22,103 bases of DNA from positions 1-22,103 of IMG/VR virus record IMGVR_UViG_3300010373_001375. One strand, 5' to 3'. A model generated the notes under the pieces. It was not told the DNA's origin. It ran no database searches and worked only from the letters and a program-made list of their open reading frames with translations. The stretch comes from a virus. The translations under genes and the position numbers were made by a program. This document shows positions 11,056-21,404 of the stretch, piece by piece (positions within the stretch are counted from its first letter, which is position 1; each line of letters starts with the position of its first letter).

Positions 11056-13092
11056 ATGTCATCGCAAGCCATTAGAGCCGGTTCCGCATTCGTTGAAATC
11101 TTTGCCGACGATTCAAAGCTCATGCGCTCGCTGGCCAAGAACCAGGTTGCCTTGAAGAAATGGGGCAAGACCGCATCGGCCGTCGGTACCAAGCTCATTG
11201 CCGCCGGAACGGCGATGCTGGCGCCCTTGATGGCCGCAACGCGCGCCTATGCGTCGATGGGCGCGGAGATGGCGCGTGGAGCCCAGAAAACCGGGATGGC
11301 CGTCGAGTCGCTGTCGCAACTCAAATATGCCGCCAATCAAAGCGGCGTGGAATTCGAAAAGCTCGAAACCGGCATCGCCCGGATGAATCGATCGATTCTC
11401 AACGCGGCTGAGGGTAGCCAGCAATCGCAGGAAGCCTTTGCTCATCTGGGTTTGTCGGTCGCTCAACTCTCGCGCATGAAGCCCGAGGAACAATTCCGGG
11501 CGATCGCCGAGGCCTTGTCGAAGATCAAGAACCCGACGCTCCGCAGCGGGCTCGTGCAACAGATCTTCGGACGCAGCGGCAGCGAGCTATTGCCATTGCT
11601 CAACCAGGGAGCCGCCGGCATCGACAAGATGATGAAGCGAGCCGATGAACTGGGCTTGACCATGAGCACCAGCGCGGCCAATGGGGCGCTGGCGTTCGAT
11701 CAAAAGCTCAATGACTTGTGGCAAGTGGTGAAAATGGGTGTGTTCCAGATCGGCGGCGCGCTTGCCCCGGTGCTCGACACGGTGACCGGCTACATGATCA
11801 AGGGAATCGGCGTCGTGCGGGATTTCATCACGCAGCATCAGGGTTTGATTGTCGCCGCGGCCGGAGCTGGCGCGGCCCTGCTGACTGGCGGAATCATCCT
11901 CAAGGGTGTCGGGGCGGTTTTCAGTGTTGCATCGGGAGCCGTCGGAGTTTTCAGCACCGGGCTGGGCATCGCCAATGCGCTTGTAGCTGCCGCGGTGTCG
12001 CCGCTGGGGCTCATGACGGTCGGGCTGCTGGGCGGTGCCGCTGCGTTCCTGTATCTCACCAAGGCCGGTGCAGCGACGCGTGAATATCTCTCGGGCGTGT
12101 TCAGCGACTTGCGCGACGAAACCGTGACCGCGTTCCAGGGCGTCCGCGATGCCATGGCCGCCGGCGACTGGGGATTGGCTGCGAAAATCCTATGGACATA
12201 CGTCAAGCTCGAAGCACTCAAAGGCAAGACATTCCTGCGATCGAACTGGATCAGCATCAAAGCCGATGCGCTGGATATCTGGTCAAGCACCGTCGAAGGC
12301 ACCGAAAAGATTTGGTCCTATGCCAAGGAGTACTTGAGCAACTGGGATGGAGTGAAGACCGCGATAACGAAGGTGACCAACTGGTTTAAAAACACCTGGG
12401 AAAACGTTGTCGATTACGTCGCCGACAAACTCCAAAGCTTTTATGACACCGACAATCAGGAGCTTCAAAAGGGATTGAAGGACATCGACGCCAAGGAAAA
12501 ATCCGGCAAGATTACCCATGAATTTGCCGAGCAGGCCCGCAAGAACCTACACAGCACTTTCGATAGTTACGATGATAAGCAGCGGCAACAGCGCGACGCT
12601 GATCGTCAATCCGCATATCGAGACGCCCAGGCCAAAGCTGATGCAACTTTCAAGTCAGCGCATCCGGAGCTTGTGCAGCAAGAGGAAGCGGCGCGCAAAC
12701 GCATTGAGGATGAACAGACCAACCGTCGCAAATCCAATGACGATGAGGCGGCCAAGGCGCGTAAGGATGCGATTGACCAGGCCTCACAAGAACTGGCCGA
12801 CCTGAAAAAGCAGCTTGCGGCCGGCGCGCAGCAGGCCCAGACCGAGGCCGGCAAGAGCCGCACTTTCAACGCCCCCACATTCGACGCCAGTGCAGCCAAT
12901 GAGGGGCTCGAAGGGATGATGAAATCCACCGTCGCGGGCACGTTCAGCGCCGCCGGCGCTTTTGGGCTGGGCAACAGCAATACCGGCGAGCGAATCGCCA
13001 AGGCCACGGAAAAAACCGCTCAATTCGTGGAGATGATTCTCAAAGAGGGCAAGGGCGGCGCAAAAAACGTCAGCGGACTCACTTTCAGTTAA
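11056..13092 (+). CDS. Tail tape measure protein
   Basis: 678 residues, the longest tail gene. N-terminal helical part with repeated Ala/Lys (SKLMRSLAKNQVALKKWGKTASAVGTKLIAAG) and GAEMARGAQKTGMAVESLSQLKYAA; a long hydrophobic zone at about 265-345 (GLIVAAAGAGAALLTGGIIL, then ALVAAAVSPLGLMTVGLLGG) typical of tape measures; a charged coiled-coil region at about 480-600; and a C-terminus MMKSTVAGTFSAAGAFGLGN plus ERIAKATEKTAQ, a motif shared by planctomycete prophage tape measures as I recall them. The protein sets tail length by extending inside the tube and may enter the host membrane. By the usual ~1.5 angstrom per residue, a tail near 100 nm would be expected. It follows the chaperone frame by 3 nt. 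Confidence 0.88.
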   Translation: MSSQAIRAGSAFVEIFADDSKLMRSLAKNQVALKKWGKTASAVGTKLIAAGTAMLAPLMAATRAYASMGAEMARGAQKTGMAVESLSQLKYAANQSGVEFEKLETGIARMNRSILNAAEGSQQSQEAFAHLGLSVAQLSRMKPEEQFRAIAEALSKIKNPTLRSGLVQQIFGRSGSELLPLLNQGAAGIDKMMKRADELGLTMSTSAANGALAFDQKLNDLWQVVKMGVFQIGGALAPVLDTVTGYMIKGIGVVRDFITQHQGLIVAAAGAGAALLTGGIILKGVGAVFSVASGAVGVFSTGLGIANALVAAAVSPLGLMTVGLLGGAAAFLYLTKAGAATREYLSGVFSDLRDETVTAFQGVRDAMAAGDWGLAAKILWTYVKLEALKGKTFLRSNWISIKADALDIWSSTVEGTEKIWSYAKEYLSNWDGVKTAITKVTNWFKNTWENVVDYVADKLQSFYDTDNQELQKGLKDIDAKEKSGKITHEFAEQARKNLHSTFDSYDDKQRQQRDADRQSAYRDAQAKADATFKSAHPELVQQEEAARKRIEDEQTNRRKSNDDEAAKARKDAIDQASQELADLKKQLAAGAQQAQTEAGKSRTFNAPTFDASAANEGLEGMMKSTVAGTFSAAGAFGLGNSNTGERIAKATEKTAQFVEMILKEGKGGAKNVSGLTFS

Positions 13093-15406: not shown

Positions 15407-17488
15407 ATGTTTTCGATCAAGACAGCCAGGAAGCCGCGCCGCAAGGCAACCGGCCAGGGCGGCTATGAGCAGCACCGGGACAAGATGGCCCGCGTGTCTG
15501 CGGAGAAATCGCGCAAGGGCCGCGACGTCGCCGACGATCGGCCAGACTGCGCTAACCCCGAGCGCCGCGCCCAGAGCAGAAGCCTCGAGTATTTTCTTCG
15601 GACCTATCTTCCGCAGACGTTTTACCTGCCATGGTCGCCGGATCATCGGACGGTGATCCAGAAGCTTGAAAGCATCATGCAGGACGGCGGGCAGTCGGCT
15701 TACGCCATGCCGCGCGGCAGCGGCAAGACCGCGATCGTCGAGGGGGCGGTACTGTTTGCGACTCTGCACGGCTTGCGGCGATTTGTATCGGTGATCGGCA
15801 GCGAGGAAAGCGCCGCAGTCGAGATACTCAAAAGCATCAAGACCGAGCTCGAAACCAACGACCTGCTGGACGAGGATTTTCACTTCACTTGCGGGCCGAT
15901 CCGCGCACTTGAGGGAATCGCCAATCGGTGCAGTGGCCAGCTTTGGAAGGGAAAGCGGACCCGCATTGTTTGGACCGACAAGCGGATTGTTTTGCCCACC
16001 GTCGAGGGCAGCCTATCGAGCGGCATCGTGCTTGACGTTGCCGGCATCACCGGGCGAATTCGCGGCAAAAAAGCCAAGCTGGCCAACGGTCAATCCATCC
16101 GGCCCGACCTGGCGCTGCTGGATGATCCGCAAACCGATGAATCGGCGCATAGCCCATCGCAAGTGGCTCAGCGGGAAAGGCTCGTGACGGGAGCTGTGCT
16201 GGGGCTTGCCGGACCGGGCAAGAAAATCGCGGCCGTCATGCCCTGTACCGTGATCGCAACCGACGACCTGGCCGACCGGGTACTGAATCGAAAGAAGCAT
16301 CCGGAGTGGCAAGGCGAGCGCGCCAAGCTGATGAACGCCATGCCGACCAATGTTGTCCTATGGGATCAATACGCGCAGATCCGTGCCGACAGCCTTCGAG
16401 CGGACAACAAGGGACGAGAGGCCACGGAGTTTTACGCTGCAAATCGAGAGCAGATGGATGCTGGCGCCCTGCCGGCGTGGCCAGCCCGGCACAACCCCGA
16501 TGAAATATCGGCGATCCAGCACGCCATGAATCTTCGCATCGACCACGGCGAAGCGGTCTATGCGGCAGAGTACCAGAATGAGCCTTTGATTGAGCAGCTT
16601 GGAGAACAGCAACTGTCGGCCGATGAAATCTGCGCAAAGGTGAACAACCTCGACCGTCGCGCCGTTCCGATCGGCTGTGAGACGCTTACCGCATTCATCG
16701 ACGTGCAGGGCAGCGTGCTGTTTTGGATGGTGATCGCGTGGGCCGAGGGCTTCACCGGCTACATTATCGACTACGGGACGTTTCCAGAGCAGCACGGTGA
16801 TTACTTCACGCTCAATGACCTGCGCGTCACGCTGGCCAAGGTATTCCCGGCCGGGGGCGAAGAGGCGCAGATTTACGCTGGCCTTGAGAAGCTAACCGAT
16901 CAACTCATCAGCCGCGCTTGGATTCGCAATGGCACAGAAATGCGCATCAGCAAGCTGCTGATCGACGCCGGCTATAAGACCGACACCGTCTATCAGTTTT
17001 GCCGCCAGTCCAAGCACGCCGCGATTGTAATGCCCAGCCACGGCCGTTCTGTGGATGCCAGCAGCATTCCATGGGAACACTTCAAAGCTGCGGCGGGGGA
17101 AAAGATCGGCCATCACTGGCTTACTAAACCCAATGAGCGAGGCGTCAGGCACATCACGATTGATACGAATTTCTGGAAGACCTTTTTCCATGCTCGACTG
17201 CGCGTGGCCATGGGAGATAAAAGCTGCCTGTCATTGTTCGGCAAGGTGCCCAAGTCGCACCGGATGCTTGCCGACCACTTCACCGCGGAATATGGCGTCA
17301 AGACTGAGGGACGCGGGCGAACGGTCATTGTCTTTAAGCTCAGGCCCGGCCGCGATAACCATCTTCTTGACTGCGCCGTAGGCAACTGCGCTGCCGCGTC
17401 ATTACTTGGCGTCAAGCTCGATACCGACAAGCCCGTTAGGAAACCCGCGCCACGCCGAGGCAAGCGCGTTACCCCATTGAATTGGTGA
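15407..17488 (+). CDS. Terminase large subunit (DNA packaging ATPase-nuclease)
   Basis: 693 residues. Translocates and cuts phage DNA at the portal. The N-terminal region has RSLEYFLRTYLPQTFYLPWSPDH (about 58-80), a typical adenine-binding lead-in, then Walker A MPRGSGKT (101-108) and Walker B DLALLDD (234-240, Asp239-Asp240). An ATPase coupling segment follows (VMPCTVIATDDLADRV, 278-293). The nuclease domain is an RNase H fold: AFIDVQG (Asp432), LLIDAGY (Asp520) and NHLLDCAVGN (Asp655) are the likely metal-binding acidics. The N-terminal ~45 residues are basic and Lys/Arg-rich. Unlike lambda, the gene lies after the tail genes, not before the head genes. Confidence 0.93.
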   Translation: MFSIKTARKPRRKATGQGGYEQHRDKMARVSAEKSRKGRDVADDRPDCANPERRAQSRSLEYFLRTYLPQTFYLPWSPDHRTVIQKLESIMQDGGQSAYAMPRGSGKTAIVEGAVLFATLHGLRRFVSVIGSEESAAVEILKSIKTELETNDLLDEDFHFTCGPIRALEGIANRCSGQLWKGKRTRIVWTDKRIVLPTVEGSLSSGIVLDVAGITGRIRGKKAKLANGQSIRPDLALLDDPQTDESAHSPSQVAQRERLVTGAVLGLAGPGKKIAAVMPCTVIATDDLADRVLNRKKHPEWQGERAKLMNAMPTNVVLWDQYAQIRADSLRADNKGREATEFYAANREQMDAGALPAWPARHNPDEISAIQHAMNLRIDHGEAVYAAEYQNEPLIEQLGEQQLSADEICAKVNNLDRRAVPIGCETLTAFIDVQGSVLFWMVIAWAEGFTGYIIDYGTFPEQHGDYFTLNDLRVTLAKVFPAGGEEAQIYAGLEKLTDQLISRAWIRNGTEMRISKLLIDAGYKTDTVYQFCRQSKHAAIVMPSHGRSVDASSIPWEHFKAAAGEKIGHHWLTKPNERGVRHITIDTNFWKTFFHARLRVAMGDKSCLSLFGKVPKSHRMLADHFTAEYGVKTEGRGRTVIVFKLRPGRDNHLLDCAVGNCAAASLLGVKLDTDKPVRKPAPRRGKRVTPLNW

Positions 17489-17492
17489 AAAC

Positions 17493-18473
17493 ATGCCTGG
17501 TGATGTAATGAAAACAGTGGCCAACGGTTCGCCCGTTCGGCCGTCTGCGCAGTGGCAGAATCGCGCAAATCGAGCGATCAAAAAGAGCGAGGCCAATGGC
17601 AACTCGCTGAGCGCCGGCCAGCCCGGCATCCGCCAACCGATCATCACAATCTTTGTCCAGAACAACAGTGGAGAGGACCGCAAGCGCTTCGAGGTTCTGG
17701 GCATTGATGGGATTCTGTATGGGCCGGACGACAACAAGACGGAGTTCCAAAACAATCCGTCGCTGACGGGCGTGACGCCTGTCGAAACCGAGCATTTCGG
17801 TAACTTCGTTATCTGCGCCGAGCCCATCGCCGACGGAGCTGTGGGCCGCGCATGGATCATCGGCGTCTGCTCAGTCCAGATCGACATTCAGAACGTCGCT
17901 GATGGATTTGCCGACGTGGAGGATAACGAGCCTGGCCAGTTAAAGAGCGGACAGCAAGGCGCCGCGCAGATCCTGTGGACCGAGAACGACGAAAACGGCA
18001 CAGACGACACCGGCATTATGTGGGCGGTCGTTCGCCTCACGGGACCCGGTCCGCTTATTTGCATCACCGCGGAACTTACGGGGAAATCGGGCACGCGCTA
18101 TAGCTGGGAGCAGGCTGCGCCCGACAGCGGAACTGGCGCATGGAGTGTAGTCACCGACGGCAAGACCGGATCATTTACAGACAAGCCCGCGATCGATCTT
18201 GACGCGTCCGATACCACCGACCTTACTGGAAAATTTGTCGCGCTGGTTCCAGTTACGGGCAGTGACGGAAAACTCTGCTATGTCATCGCCGGCGGCCCCG
18301 GCGCTGGAGGCGGCATCACCAATGAATTCACGGTGCTCACCAACATCGTGATCAGTGGAACGACCGTAGTTGCTTCTACGCTGACTGTCACCGTTACGAA
18401 TGGTCGCATCACCGCCATCGCCGACGGAGACGATGTAACTCTGGATGGCACGGATTGCACGGGCTTGACCTGA
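17493..18473 (+). CDS. Tail/virion-associated protein, planctomycete-phage type
   Basis: 326 residues from ATG 17493 (a second ATG at 17508). N-terminal basic segment, then IRQPIITIFVQNNSGEDRKRFEVLGIDGILYGPDDN and 'FVICAEPIADGAVGRAWIIGVCSVQIDI', a conserved-looking order (beta strand, 'RkrfevLgi...lygP', then 'EPIadGaiGra.i.GvcsV.v'). The middle has AAQILWTENDENGTDDTG and LTGPGPLICITAELTG. The end has repetitive beta segments rich in Thr, Val and Gly (VISGTTVVASTLTVTVTNGR). I regard it as a tail or fibre-like structural protein known from such prophages; no enzyme motif is seen. It starts 4 nt after the terminase stop. Confidence 0.55.
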   Translation: MPGDVMKTVANGSPVRPSAQWQNRANRAIKKSEANGNSLSAGQPGIRQPIITIFVQNNSGEDRKRFEVLGIDGILYGPDDNKTEFQNNPSLTGVTPVETEHFGNFVICAEPIADGAVGRAWIIGVCSVQIDIQNVADGFADVEDNEPGQLKSGQQGAAQILWTENDENGTDDTGIMWAVVRLTGPGPLICITAELTGKSGTRYSWEQAAPDSGTGAWSVVTDGKTGSFTDKPAIDLDASDTTDLTGKFVALVPVTGSDGKLCYVIAGGPGAGGGITNEFTVLTNIVISGTTVVASTLTVTVTNGRITAIADGDDVTLDGTDCTGLT

Positions 18474-18484
18474 GGAGGGGAGCC

Positions 18485-19285
18485 ATGCCTTTTCAACCAG
18501 CCATCTCTGGCGGGAAGCTCGTATTCAAGGACGGCGTCCTGGGCATGACCGAGCCCGCTGACTTTGACGACTTCTGCTACTGCTGTTCCTGTCCCCCGAC
18601 TACCAATTGCAAATACCCGGACGGCTCTTCTCAGACCTGCTCCAATGGCAAAAACATCGCGCTGCCGAACTTTCTAAAAGTCAGCCTGAGCGGCATTGTC
18701 GTGCAGTCATGCGTGACGAACTTTCCGGATTGGGCTTCGATCAATGATGGTTGCACATGCCCGCGAGCCTCAGGCGCTGGAACGTGCGGCGCTTCCTACC
18801 AATGGTATAACGCGGATTTGGATTTCGCGGACCTCACGCCCAACCCGGCCAACGATTCACCGTGCAATTACACGATTGACTTCGATTATCGAACGCCCGG
18901 CACAATCTCTATGGCGCTGGGGGATAAATGCTGCACGATCCAAGACGAAGGTATCTTCCCGGTCGGGTTTAGCTGGCGAGCATCATATGACGCATCAACC
19001 GAACTTCTAACAGTCATCGTAATTGCCGGTGACCACGCAGAGACGACCCAGGTCGGCGGAACGATCGATGTCATTCCGATTTTCTTCGCTGGCAGAGCAA
19101 GCGTGCCTTGCGGCACATGGAAACCGACAGACGTAATCACGATTGCCAACACCCTTTCTGTCGGCCAGGAGATTACCAGCGGATGGCCTTTGTCCGGCGG
19201 TGGCGTGGAACTGTGGGCCATGGCCAGCGGTGGCACCTGCACCATTCAATGTCTCAAAACCGACCCCGGAACCTATGCCCCTTGA
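18485..19285 (+). CDS. Cysteine-rich tail/surface protein (16 Cys in 266 residues)
   Basis: 266 residues. The ATG at 18485 is preceded by GAGGAGGGG (18472-18480), by far the best ribosome-binding site in the window; an earlier open frame to 18455 is ignored. Cysteines are clustered: CYCCSC and NCKYPDGSSQTC near residues 31-52, CTCPRASGAGTC at ~90-101, KCC at ~140, TCTIQC near the end. Much of the rest is beta-like (Thr, Gly, Ile, Val). No signal peptide or catalytic motif. Clusters of this kind suggest disulfide bonding or metal binding in an exposed virion protein, possibly receptor-binding. Overlaps the next gene (with an Erv/ALR-like domain) by 11 nt. Family unrecognised. Confidence 0.6.
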   Translation: MPFQPAISGGKLVFKDGVLGMTEPADFDDFCYCCSCPPTTNCKYPDGSSQTCSNGKNIALPNFLKVSLSGIVVQSCVTNFPDWASINDGCTCPRASGAGTCGASYQWYNADLDFADLTPNPANDSPCNYTIDFDYRTPGTISMALGDKCCTIQDEGIFPVGFSWRASYDASTELLTVIVIAGDHAETTQVGGTIDVIPIFFAGRASVPCGTWKPTDVITIANTLSVGQEITSGWPLSGGGVELWAMASGGTCTIQCLKTDPGTYAP

Positions 19286-21404
19286 ACTTCGCCAACGTCA
19301 GATGATTTGCTGGAAGTGCGCCCAGCGAGATCGCACCAGCGCCGATCGTGACGCATGCAAGGCTGGCGGCCAATGCAGCGAGCATGCGCAAAACGACACG
19401 TGCCCGCTTGGGCTGCATGTTCCACCGCCGCCGCCAGCGCCGGAGCTGGTGTGGAATCACATCAAGGGGCCGTGGAAGCGGCTAAAAGTGTATTGGGCGC
19501 AATATCCGGAAGTGCATGCGATCTACCGGCAGGCGATGGCCGACGCAGCCAGGGCAATTCTACCCTATCCAGACGACGCGAACGGGCGCGGGATTGTGAT
19601 ATGCGGGGGAGGTGCTTACGCCTACTCAGCACTTATCACGCTGGCGATGATCCGCCACGTTGGATGCACTTTGCCTGTCGAAATATGGGGATTCGATGCC
19701 AGCGAGTTTCCCGACTGGTTTGCGACCGAAACGGCGAAGCTTGGCGCCACGCTGCATGCAGCAGATGCCTTCTATCCCGTCGATCCGGTGCGCGGCATCT
19801 ACGACCGCGATAAAGGTTGGACGCTCAAAGCCTACGCCATCCTGCATTCTCGCTTCCGAGAAATTCTTTACCTTGACGCCGACTCTTACCCCGTTCGCGA
19901 TCCGTCTGATTTGTTCGAGCGGGCCGAGTATATCCAGCATGGCGCTATCTTCTGGCCCGACACCCCTGAAACCGGCGGAACTGATTTCCCCGAATCAGTG
20001 TGGCAGACGATTGGCATTGCCCCACGCTCCGAGCCGGAGTTTGAGGCCGGGCAATTCATCGTGGACAAAGCACGATGCTGGAAAGCACTTCGCTTGCTCA
20101 ACTGGATGAATCAGCACAGCGATTTCTATTACTGGTTTGATCGTCAGAACGCCTATGGAGATAAGGCGCTTACCCATTTGGCGTGGAGATATACGGGGAT
20201 GGACTACGGCATGCCCGCCAAGCGCCCGGACTATCTTGAACCGGCGATGGTCCAATACGACTTTGACGACAAGCCACTTTTCGTTCACCGGGTCAAAGGA
20301 AAATTCACGCCCGTCGAAAGTCTTGACCAATATGCGATTTTCAAAACGACGCACCAATTGCCCGACCGCTACAACCCCGCTCTGCCGATGGAGGAAGTAG
20401 CTTGGAAGTTGGACGAGAAATATCTGCCGCTGGTGCCCAAGCCCGAGCCGAAAAAGAAAATCGATCTTCCGCAGTCGTCATCGTGGGGAACCGCGCTTTG
20501 GGATATGTTTCACCGCCGGCCCGCCACTTGTGATTTAGCAAATGAATCAACTTGGCTCAGGTTATTTGCCCGCAAGATTCCATGCGGCGACTGCCAGGGA
20601 CATTGGAATAAGATCGTTGAAGCGAACCCACCCGACCTGTCCAGTCGCTTCGCTTATGCCCACTGGACGCATGACCGACACAACGATGTCAATCAGAGCA
20701 AAGAAATCCCCACGCCGGTTATGAGCTGGGCAGACGCCGCGATTAAGCATGAGTGGTGGAGAATCACCGATGGGATGCCCACGCGCCTTGCGATTGCCAC
20801 GCTTTGGACGGAGGAAATCGTAGACGTTGCACGCATCACCTTTCCCACCAAGCGCCGCTATGCCGTCAAATGGAGCTTGCCCTACATCGAACACTATGGC
20901 GTAATTCATGGGGAGCGCCCGCCGGCATGGAGCAAGTTGCCGCTGCTGATCGAGCACTTACCCAAATACGATTGGATTTTCTGGACGGACGCCGATGCGA
21001 TGTTTGCTCAATATGACACCGACCTGCGCGACATGCTGGACGACAGCGCGGACTTGATTTGGACCGAGGACCACAACGGGCCGAACACCGGCGCATTTTT
21101 CATCCGAAACACGCCGGCGAGCATGGACCTGTTGAAGCGAGCGGATGCGATGTTCAACGAGCTTTCGGAAACCGACCGTCAGGGACGGTTCCGGGGCTTG
21201 TGGGAGCAGGGAGCGATCCGCTACGTCATCGAGGACCAAGCCGCGCCCCTGAAGGTCAAGACACTGGCCAAACGAGAAATCAACAGCTACGAAACCGACT
21301 ACGAAGCAGGCGATTTGATCCTGCATTTTCCCGCGCACGACAAACTTGAACGCATGAAGAAATTTTTAAATCTGTCGGCAGAAAATGCAGCCGATGGGAA
21401 TTGA
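19275..21404 (+). CDS. Fusion: glycosyltransferase + Erv/ALR-like thiol oxidase + second glycosyltransferase
   Basis: 709 residues from ATG 19275, overlapping the preceding stop by 11 nt. N-terminus (1-45) has five Cys. Residues ~105-350 read as a mannosyltransferase-like GT (MNN1/PF11051 type): GRGIVICGGGAYAYSA, CTLPVEIWGF, ILYLDADSYPVRDP with DAD at 201-203, QHGAIFWPD. Residues ~400-490 read as an Erv1/ALR-like domain: SSWGTALWDMFH, the CxxC in IPCGDCQGHW (Cys437, Cys440), RHNDVN (468-473) and a late Trp; the usual extra Cys pair after HN.VN is absent. Residues ~525-700 read as a GT34/GMA12-MNN10-like GT: KYDWIFWTDADAMF (DAD 572-574), NTGAFFIRNT (604-613), GLWEQGAI, KREINSY. Could glycosylate phage or host surface. 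Domain calls are by motif. The stop lies inside the tRNA 3' end. Confidence 0.7.
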   Translation: MPLELRQRQMICWKCAQRDRTSADRDACKAGGQCSEHAQNDTCPLGLHVPPPPPAPELVWNHIKGPWKRLKVYWAQYPEVHAIYRQAMADAARAILPYPDDANGRGIVICGGGAYAYSALITLAMIRHVGCTLPVEIWGFDASEFPDWFATETAKLGATLHAADAFYPVDPVRGIYDRDKGWTLKAYAILHSRFREILYLDADSYPVRDPSDLFERAEYIQHGAIFWPDTPETGGTDFPESVWQTIGIAPRSEPEFEAGQFIVDKARCWKALRLLNWMNQHSDFYYWFDRQNAYGDKALTHLAWRYTGMDYGMPAKRPDYLEPAMVQYDFDDKPLFVHRVKGKFTPVESLDQYAIFKTTHQLPDRYNPALPMEEVAWKLDEKYLPLVPKPEPKKKIDLPQSSSWGTALWDMFHRRPATCDLANESTWLRLFARKIPCGDCQGHWNKIVEANPPDLSSRFAYAHWTHDRHNDVNQSKEIPTPVMSWADAAIKHEWWRITDGMPTRLAIATLWTEEIVDVARITFPTKRRYAVKWSLPYIEHYGVIHGERPPAWSKLPLLIEHLPKYDWIFWTDADAMFAQYDTDLRDMLDDSADLIWTEDHNGPNTGAFFIRNTPASMDLLKRADAMFNELSETDRQGRFRGLWEQGAIRYVIEDQAAPLKVKTLAKREINSYETDYEAGDLILHFPAHDKLERMKKFLNLSAENAADGN

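Follow-up and report, generated by a model that had tools for sequence, protein, structure and literature searches.

The cytoplasm in which tailed phages are assembled is reducing. In sulfhydryl oxidases of the Erv family, the FAD is held by a Trp and a His of helix alpha-1, the His after the CxxC, and a His and two Asn of helix alpha-4 (PMC4721541, PMC3616962), and the HNxVN motif is a hallmark of these enzymes (PMC3616962). The Ervs of large DNA viruses are often compact and devoid of a shuttle, sometimes carry extra fused domains, and are tied to virion assembly (PMC3509050, PMC10598087). Here we describe an Erv/ALR-like domain placed between two putative glycosyltransferases (GTs) on a single polypeptide, encoded in an IMG/VR viral record of 22,103 bases (the whole stretch analysed, hereafter the window). 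The window contains genes for a lambda-type portal, an S49 protease, a gpA-type terminase nuclease (Pfam), a major head protein and a tape measure protein. Because of these genes it is, judged by gene content, a tailed phage, and the late operon proposed in the original prediction was borne out by the same portal, protease, terminase, head protein and tape measure genes. A NusG-like protein (PF02357, 2e-10), possibly a phage antiterminator, is encoded at the record start (487-1044, +), and a conserved 326-aa protein with no family match lies between the terminase and the cysteine-rich gene (17493-18473, +). Coordinates of the features are given in Table 1.

Table 1 Features of the window that bear on the Erv-glycosyltransferase fusion and its neighbour.
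Feature	Position in window	Strand	Remarks
Tape measure protein, 678 aa, no Cys	11056..13092	+	Late tail region
Terminase large subunit (gpA-type nuclease)	15407..17488	+	
Cysteine-rich protein, 266 aa, 16 Cys; proposed substrate	18485..19285	+	
Fusion-protein CDS P0001	19275..21404	+	709 aa; same architecture in L002, 85% identity
Cysteine cluster near the N-terminus, C12-x2-C15-x12-C28-x5-C34-x8-C43-PLG; may be a shuttle or a metal site	19308..19421	+	
Putative MNN1-type (PF11051) glycosyltransferase, best HMM stretch; DxD at 19875-19883	19584..19970	+	
Erv/ALR sulfhydryl oxidase-like domain	20457..20759	+	PF04777, AF2 model, Foldseek
Active-site CxxC (C437-G-D-C440), then H443-W444	20583..20594	+	
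HNDVN (residues 469-473), Erv alpha-4 FAD adenine site	20679..20693	+	
Putative GT34 (PF05637) glycosyltransferase, DxD (572-574) to HMM match end	20988..21329	+	

The fusion gene reads from ATG to TGA with no internal stop. From the N to the C terminus, its product consists of a cysteine cluster followed by PF11051, PF04777 and PF05637, all Pfam matches exceeding the curated cut-offs, and its cysteines are at positions 12, 15, 28, 34, 43, 110, 131, 268, 419, 437 and 440. The HMM assignments and the intact ORF thus upheld the predicted GT/Erv/GT fusion, and the two DxD motifs, the CxxC and the five N-terminal cysteines were all located as described. An assembly chimera was ruled out, since a protein with these three domains in identical order, 85% identical over its full length, is encoded on the independent IMG/VR phage contig L002; C34 of the N-terminal cluster is not conserved there. 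L002 thus answers the search for homologs of this domain order that the original prediction had called for. Close-relative searches of viral contigs with each GT returned the same single relative, and a search of genome contigs with the fusion protein as query gave nothing useful. Between the window phage and its relative, dN/dS was 0.08 for the N-terminus with the first GT, 0.20 for the Erv domain and 0.20 for the GT34 domain, values which indicate purifying selection on every segment.

Assignment of both flanks to GTs comes from HMM matches and DxD motifs. PF11051 (MNN1-type mannosyltransferase) covers residues 104-232 (E=3.9e-24, 85.9 bits vs cut-off 22, Pfam) and PF05637 covers residues 592-685 (E=1.5e-14, 54.8 bits vs cut-off 23, Pfam), with DAD motifs at D201-A-D203 (residues 201-203) and D572-A-D574 (572-574). 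In the PDB sequence search, the C-terminal part matched the GT34 xyloglucan xylosyltransferase XXT5 (9p3j, 2e-4) and also XXT1, while the MNN1-type domain gave no match. The prediction of GT flanks therefore stands on the HMMs and motifs, from which a GT-A fold in each half is a candidate assignment; the full-length model was too poor (pLDDT 48) to add to it. A standalone phage GT34-like gene was also seen in LR756508.

The middle segment was identified as Erv/ALR by both HMM and structure prediction, the checks proposed for it. PF04777 matched residues 408-477 (E=1.6e-9, 38.4 bits vs cut-off 27.6, Pfam), and a PDB search by sequence retrieved the solved Erv2, Erv1 and ALR structures, Erv2 being the best (1jr8, 3e-8). 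AlphaFold2, supplied with 18 aligned Erv segments from phages, gave a model with five helices (12-29, 32-44, 49-61, 69-86 and 96-102) at a mean pLDDT of 87.7, and the top 24 Foldseek matches of this model in the PDB were all Erv1, Erv2, ALR or ASFV pB119L (probability 1.00). A chance motif was ruled out by the Pfam, PDB sequence and fold searches. The predicted FAD-site residues are all present (W409, H413, H443, H469, N470 and N473), and the CxxCxxH motif is kept. The earlier worry over missing FAD residues is mostly answered by the presence of W409/H413, CxxCxxH and HNxVN; what remains of it is that the window reads QSKEIPTPV after HNDVN instead of xLGKP, with the LGK basic residue out of register (TSIGKPIKN in L002), and that H469 is replaced by Q in L002 (QN for HN). 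Because of these deviations in the two phages, FAD binding may be weakened in this lineage, whose Erv may be a poorer oxidase than those of its relatives. The Erv domain also lacks the structural disulfide found in cellular Ervs, and the noted gap in the second Cys pair is real, as no shuttle pair lies within the domain; many compact viral Ervs are likewise without one (PMC3509050). Candidate shuttle cysteines are C12/C15 at the N-terminus, outside the Erv domain.

The misplaced basic residue in the window and the QN of L002, together with an Erv dN/dS above that of the first GT, would also fit a degenerate, non-catalytic fold that is kept to give the two GTs a scaffold, to dimerise them or to bind a partner. 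However, the CxxC, the alpha-1 Trp/His, CxxCxxH and HNDVN are all kept in the window and the dN/dS is still in the purifying range, and we consider this explanation unlikely, although it is the best of the alternatives to a disulfide-forming enzyme.

The original prediction treated a single phage protein; it noted neither that Erv recurs among phages nor that a cysteine-rich gene adjoins it. IMG/VR was scanned with a DNA pattern (CxxC-x23-W-x4-HNxVN) that is blind to neighbour genes, which gave 23 places, 18 of them Erv-like ORFs. Seventeen contigs were carried on (16 from the pattern scan plus L002), and all 17 passed the PF04777 cut-off. Positions outside the search pattern were conserved among the phage Ervs as well (alpha-1 Trp in 18/18, His in 17/18). 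Genes typical of tailed phages (terminase, portal, tape measure, prohead protease or tail protein) occur in the window and in most of the other contigs, namely G001, G002, G003, G005, G007, G008, G009, G010, G012, G013, G014, G016 and G017. A second DNA pattern yielded no further phage.

In the window, the gene directly upstream of the fusion gene, whose 3' end overlaps the fusion start by 11 nt, encodes a 266-aa protein with the highest Cys density in the window. An alternative TTG start at 18455 (ORF tool) is not common to the relative. The ortholog in L060 is 91% identical, has 16 Cys and shows a dN/dS of 0.08, so that this gene too is under purifying selection. Counting one phage per lineage, with lineages delimited by our own judgement of how similar the phages are (L062 and L071 counted apart despite related Ervs and gene order), the upstream same-strand neighbour of Erv was Cys-rich (>=3.5% and >=6 Cys) in 9/14 lineages compared with 3.2% of 278 background genes (p ~7e-11). 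It ranked first by regional Cys density in 8/14 lineages, where 0.92 was expected (p=5e-7). Genes were called with a simple script, and individual boundaries are approximate. These upstream neighbours include proteins of 349 aa with 21 Cys (L061/L069), 132 aa with 13 Cys (L063), 835 aa with 63 Cys (L074), 266 aa with 12 Cys (L066), 245 aa with 11 Cys (L075), 203 aa with 10 Cys (L071), 363 aa with 13 Cys (L067) and 461 aa with 15 Cys (L073). The neighbour was not Cys-rich in L065, L070 and L076 and was ambiguous in L072. The gene downstream of Erv was usually not Cys-rich and showed no comparable trend. In L017, a Cys-rich segment, a Ser-rich linker and the Erv domain form one protein. Erv genes beside Cys-rich genes thus recur in about ten phage lineages, and in several phages a Cys-free tape measure gene precedes the Cys-rich gene at a distance of a few genes. 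The Cys-rich proteins of different lineages have mostly no detectable homology to each other, and no known virion family was matched in Pfam and PHROG searches. Part of the 835-aa protein (L074:6986-9490) is 49% identical to the 132-aa Cys-rich protein of L063.

Fusion of Erv to a GT was not confined to the window lineage. In L013 and L026 (IMGVR_UViG_2936182689_000004 and _000005), two related phage contigs that belong to the same IMG genome record, Erv-GT2 fusions were found behind a zinc-ribbon-like N-terminus, and both have a Cys-rich gene upstream. A GT29 sialyltransferase-like domain (PF00777, 1.3e-13) is fused to Erv in L023 / L072 (IMGVR_UViG_3300044630_006976), a contig that also has prohead protease and DNA ligase genes. 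On a small Erv tree with weak deep support, the GT2 and GT29 fusions fell apart from the window fusion. As read from these domain architectures, the repeated Erv-GT fusion suggests a functional link.

Recurrent GT fusion, together with C..C...CPLG clusters ahead of Erv in the window, L021 and L015, would also be expected if the Erv oxidised the fusion's own N-terminal Cys cluster or stabilised the GTs, with the neighbour incidental and the enzyme modifying host envelope glycans. We think this improbable, because the Cys-rich adjacency is strong even for Ervs without a GT fusion and a Cys-rich segment is itself fused to Erv in L017. Least probable of all, and in our view quite doubtful, is that the neighbour is a tail protein which binds zinc or an iron-sulfur centre, while the Erv acts separately, for example in host redox control: the N-terminal CC-C clusters of many Cys-rich proteins do look like metal sites by eye, but up to 63 Cys are distributed along one protein and a dedicated thiol oxidase adjoining a metal-thiolate protein seems chemically implausible.

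Searches outside the IMG/VR phages placed the Erv domain in a known family and returned no phage counterpart. By tblastn, four phage Ervs had no match in 50,697 GenBank phages, and PHROGs contained no match to the fusion protein. In BFVD, the confident named Erv fold matches were sulfhydryl oxidases of eukaryotic viruses and none were phage proteins. The open-licence literature yielded no phage Erv-type thiol oxidase, no Erv/Cys-rich pairing and no Erv-glycosyltransferase fusion. The earlier statement that this architecture is not described for phages accordingly holds within the GenBank phages, PHROGs, BFVD and open-licence literature searched; the same collections gave no earlier instance of a recurrent tailed-phage Erv module paired with Cys-rich genes, or of its fusion to GTs. 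That the phages had picked up a common gene of their bacterial hosts was not supported, as a PF04777 search was negative in all 993 genomes drawn from the phyla to which a Boseongicola, a Pedobacter and a Bacillota genome belong, planctomycetes being among the phyla outside the sample. The same PF04777 search was positive in all 17 phage contigs and in one archaeal MAG. Some bacterial carriers of Erv are listed in the literature (PMC10598087). Applied to 257 Gb of bacterial and archaeal genome contigs, the DNA pattern found one real Erv, in a Nitrososphaeraceae MAG; this 252-aa protein (L035, QCWD01000197.1; 76.5 bits) may be archaeal, viral or misbinned.

We favour, by a slight balance of probability, the reading that the fusion is a phage enzyme for modification of a Cys-rich virion protein, in which the Erv domain makes disulfides and the GTs glycosylate the same or a nearby protein. 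We infer here the catalytic activity, the identity of the substrate, its location in the virion and the shared target of the GTs. The Erv domain would bind FAD, and its CxxC would take electrons from thiols of the adjacent 266-aa, 16-Cys protein, proposed as the substrate because a Cys-rich gene adjoins Erv recurrently. With O2 or another acceptor taking up the electrons, disulfides would arise while the tail is being assembled in the reducing cytoplasm of the bacterium. Glycosylation by the two GTs would be directed at this partner or at a surface protein of the virion close to it. The Cys-rich partner is probably tail-associated, and its place in the late operon, a few genes past the tape measure gene, suggests a possible tail-tip or surface role. 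For tailed phages more broadly we make a more tentative proposal, which we put at somewhat less than an even chance: some of them may carry their own cytoplasmic disulfide system, made up of an Erv and a dedicated Cys-rich tail-associated protein, sometimes with GTs on the same chain, as a counterpart of the virion pathways of poxviruses and ASFV. If this is true, phages themselves supply the disulfide chemistry for a component of their virion, as poxviruses and ASFV do. The Erv/Cys-rich pair names a likely substrate and could be the source of a small disulfide catalyst that works in the cytoplasm and comes with its own substrates, and the repeated Erv-GT fusions hint that one target receives both disulfides and glycans.

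Compared with Erv1, Erv2 and ALR (PF04777), the window Erv shares the five-helix fold, the CxxC, the alpha-1 Trp/His, CxxCxxH and HNxVN. It differs from the cellular enzymes in being sandwiched between two GTs in a tailed-phage protein and in lacking the CX16C structural disulfide and an in-domain shuttle, and it has 7 residues fewer than yeast Erv1 from the alpha-1 His to the CxxC. The flanking domains are like MNN1-type (PF11051) and GT34 GMA12/MNN10 GTs in their HMM matches above cut-off and their DxD motifs, but they are phage-encoded and fused to either side of an Erv. A multi-domain Erv fusion is a feature in common with QSOX; however, QSOX has thioredoxin and psi-Erv domains, neither of which was detected in the window protein (for thioredoxin, no Pfam match at E<=1). 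A viral origin is shared with poxvirus E10R, ASFV pB119L, mimivirus R596 and baculovirus Ac92, and pB119L is among the best fold matches of the window Erv. Those four enzymes serve eukaryotic viruses, whereas the window Erv is found in a tailed phage.
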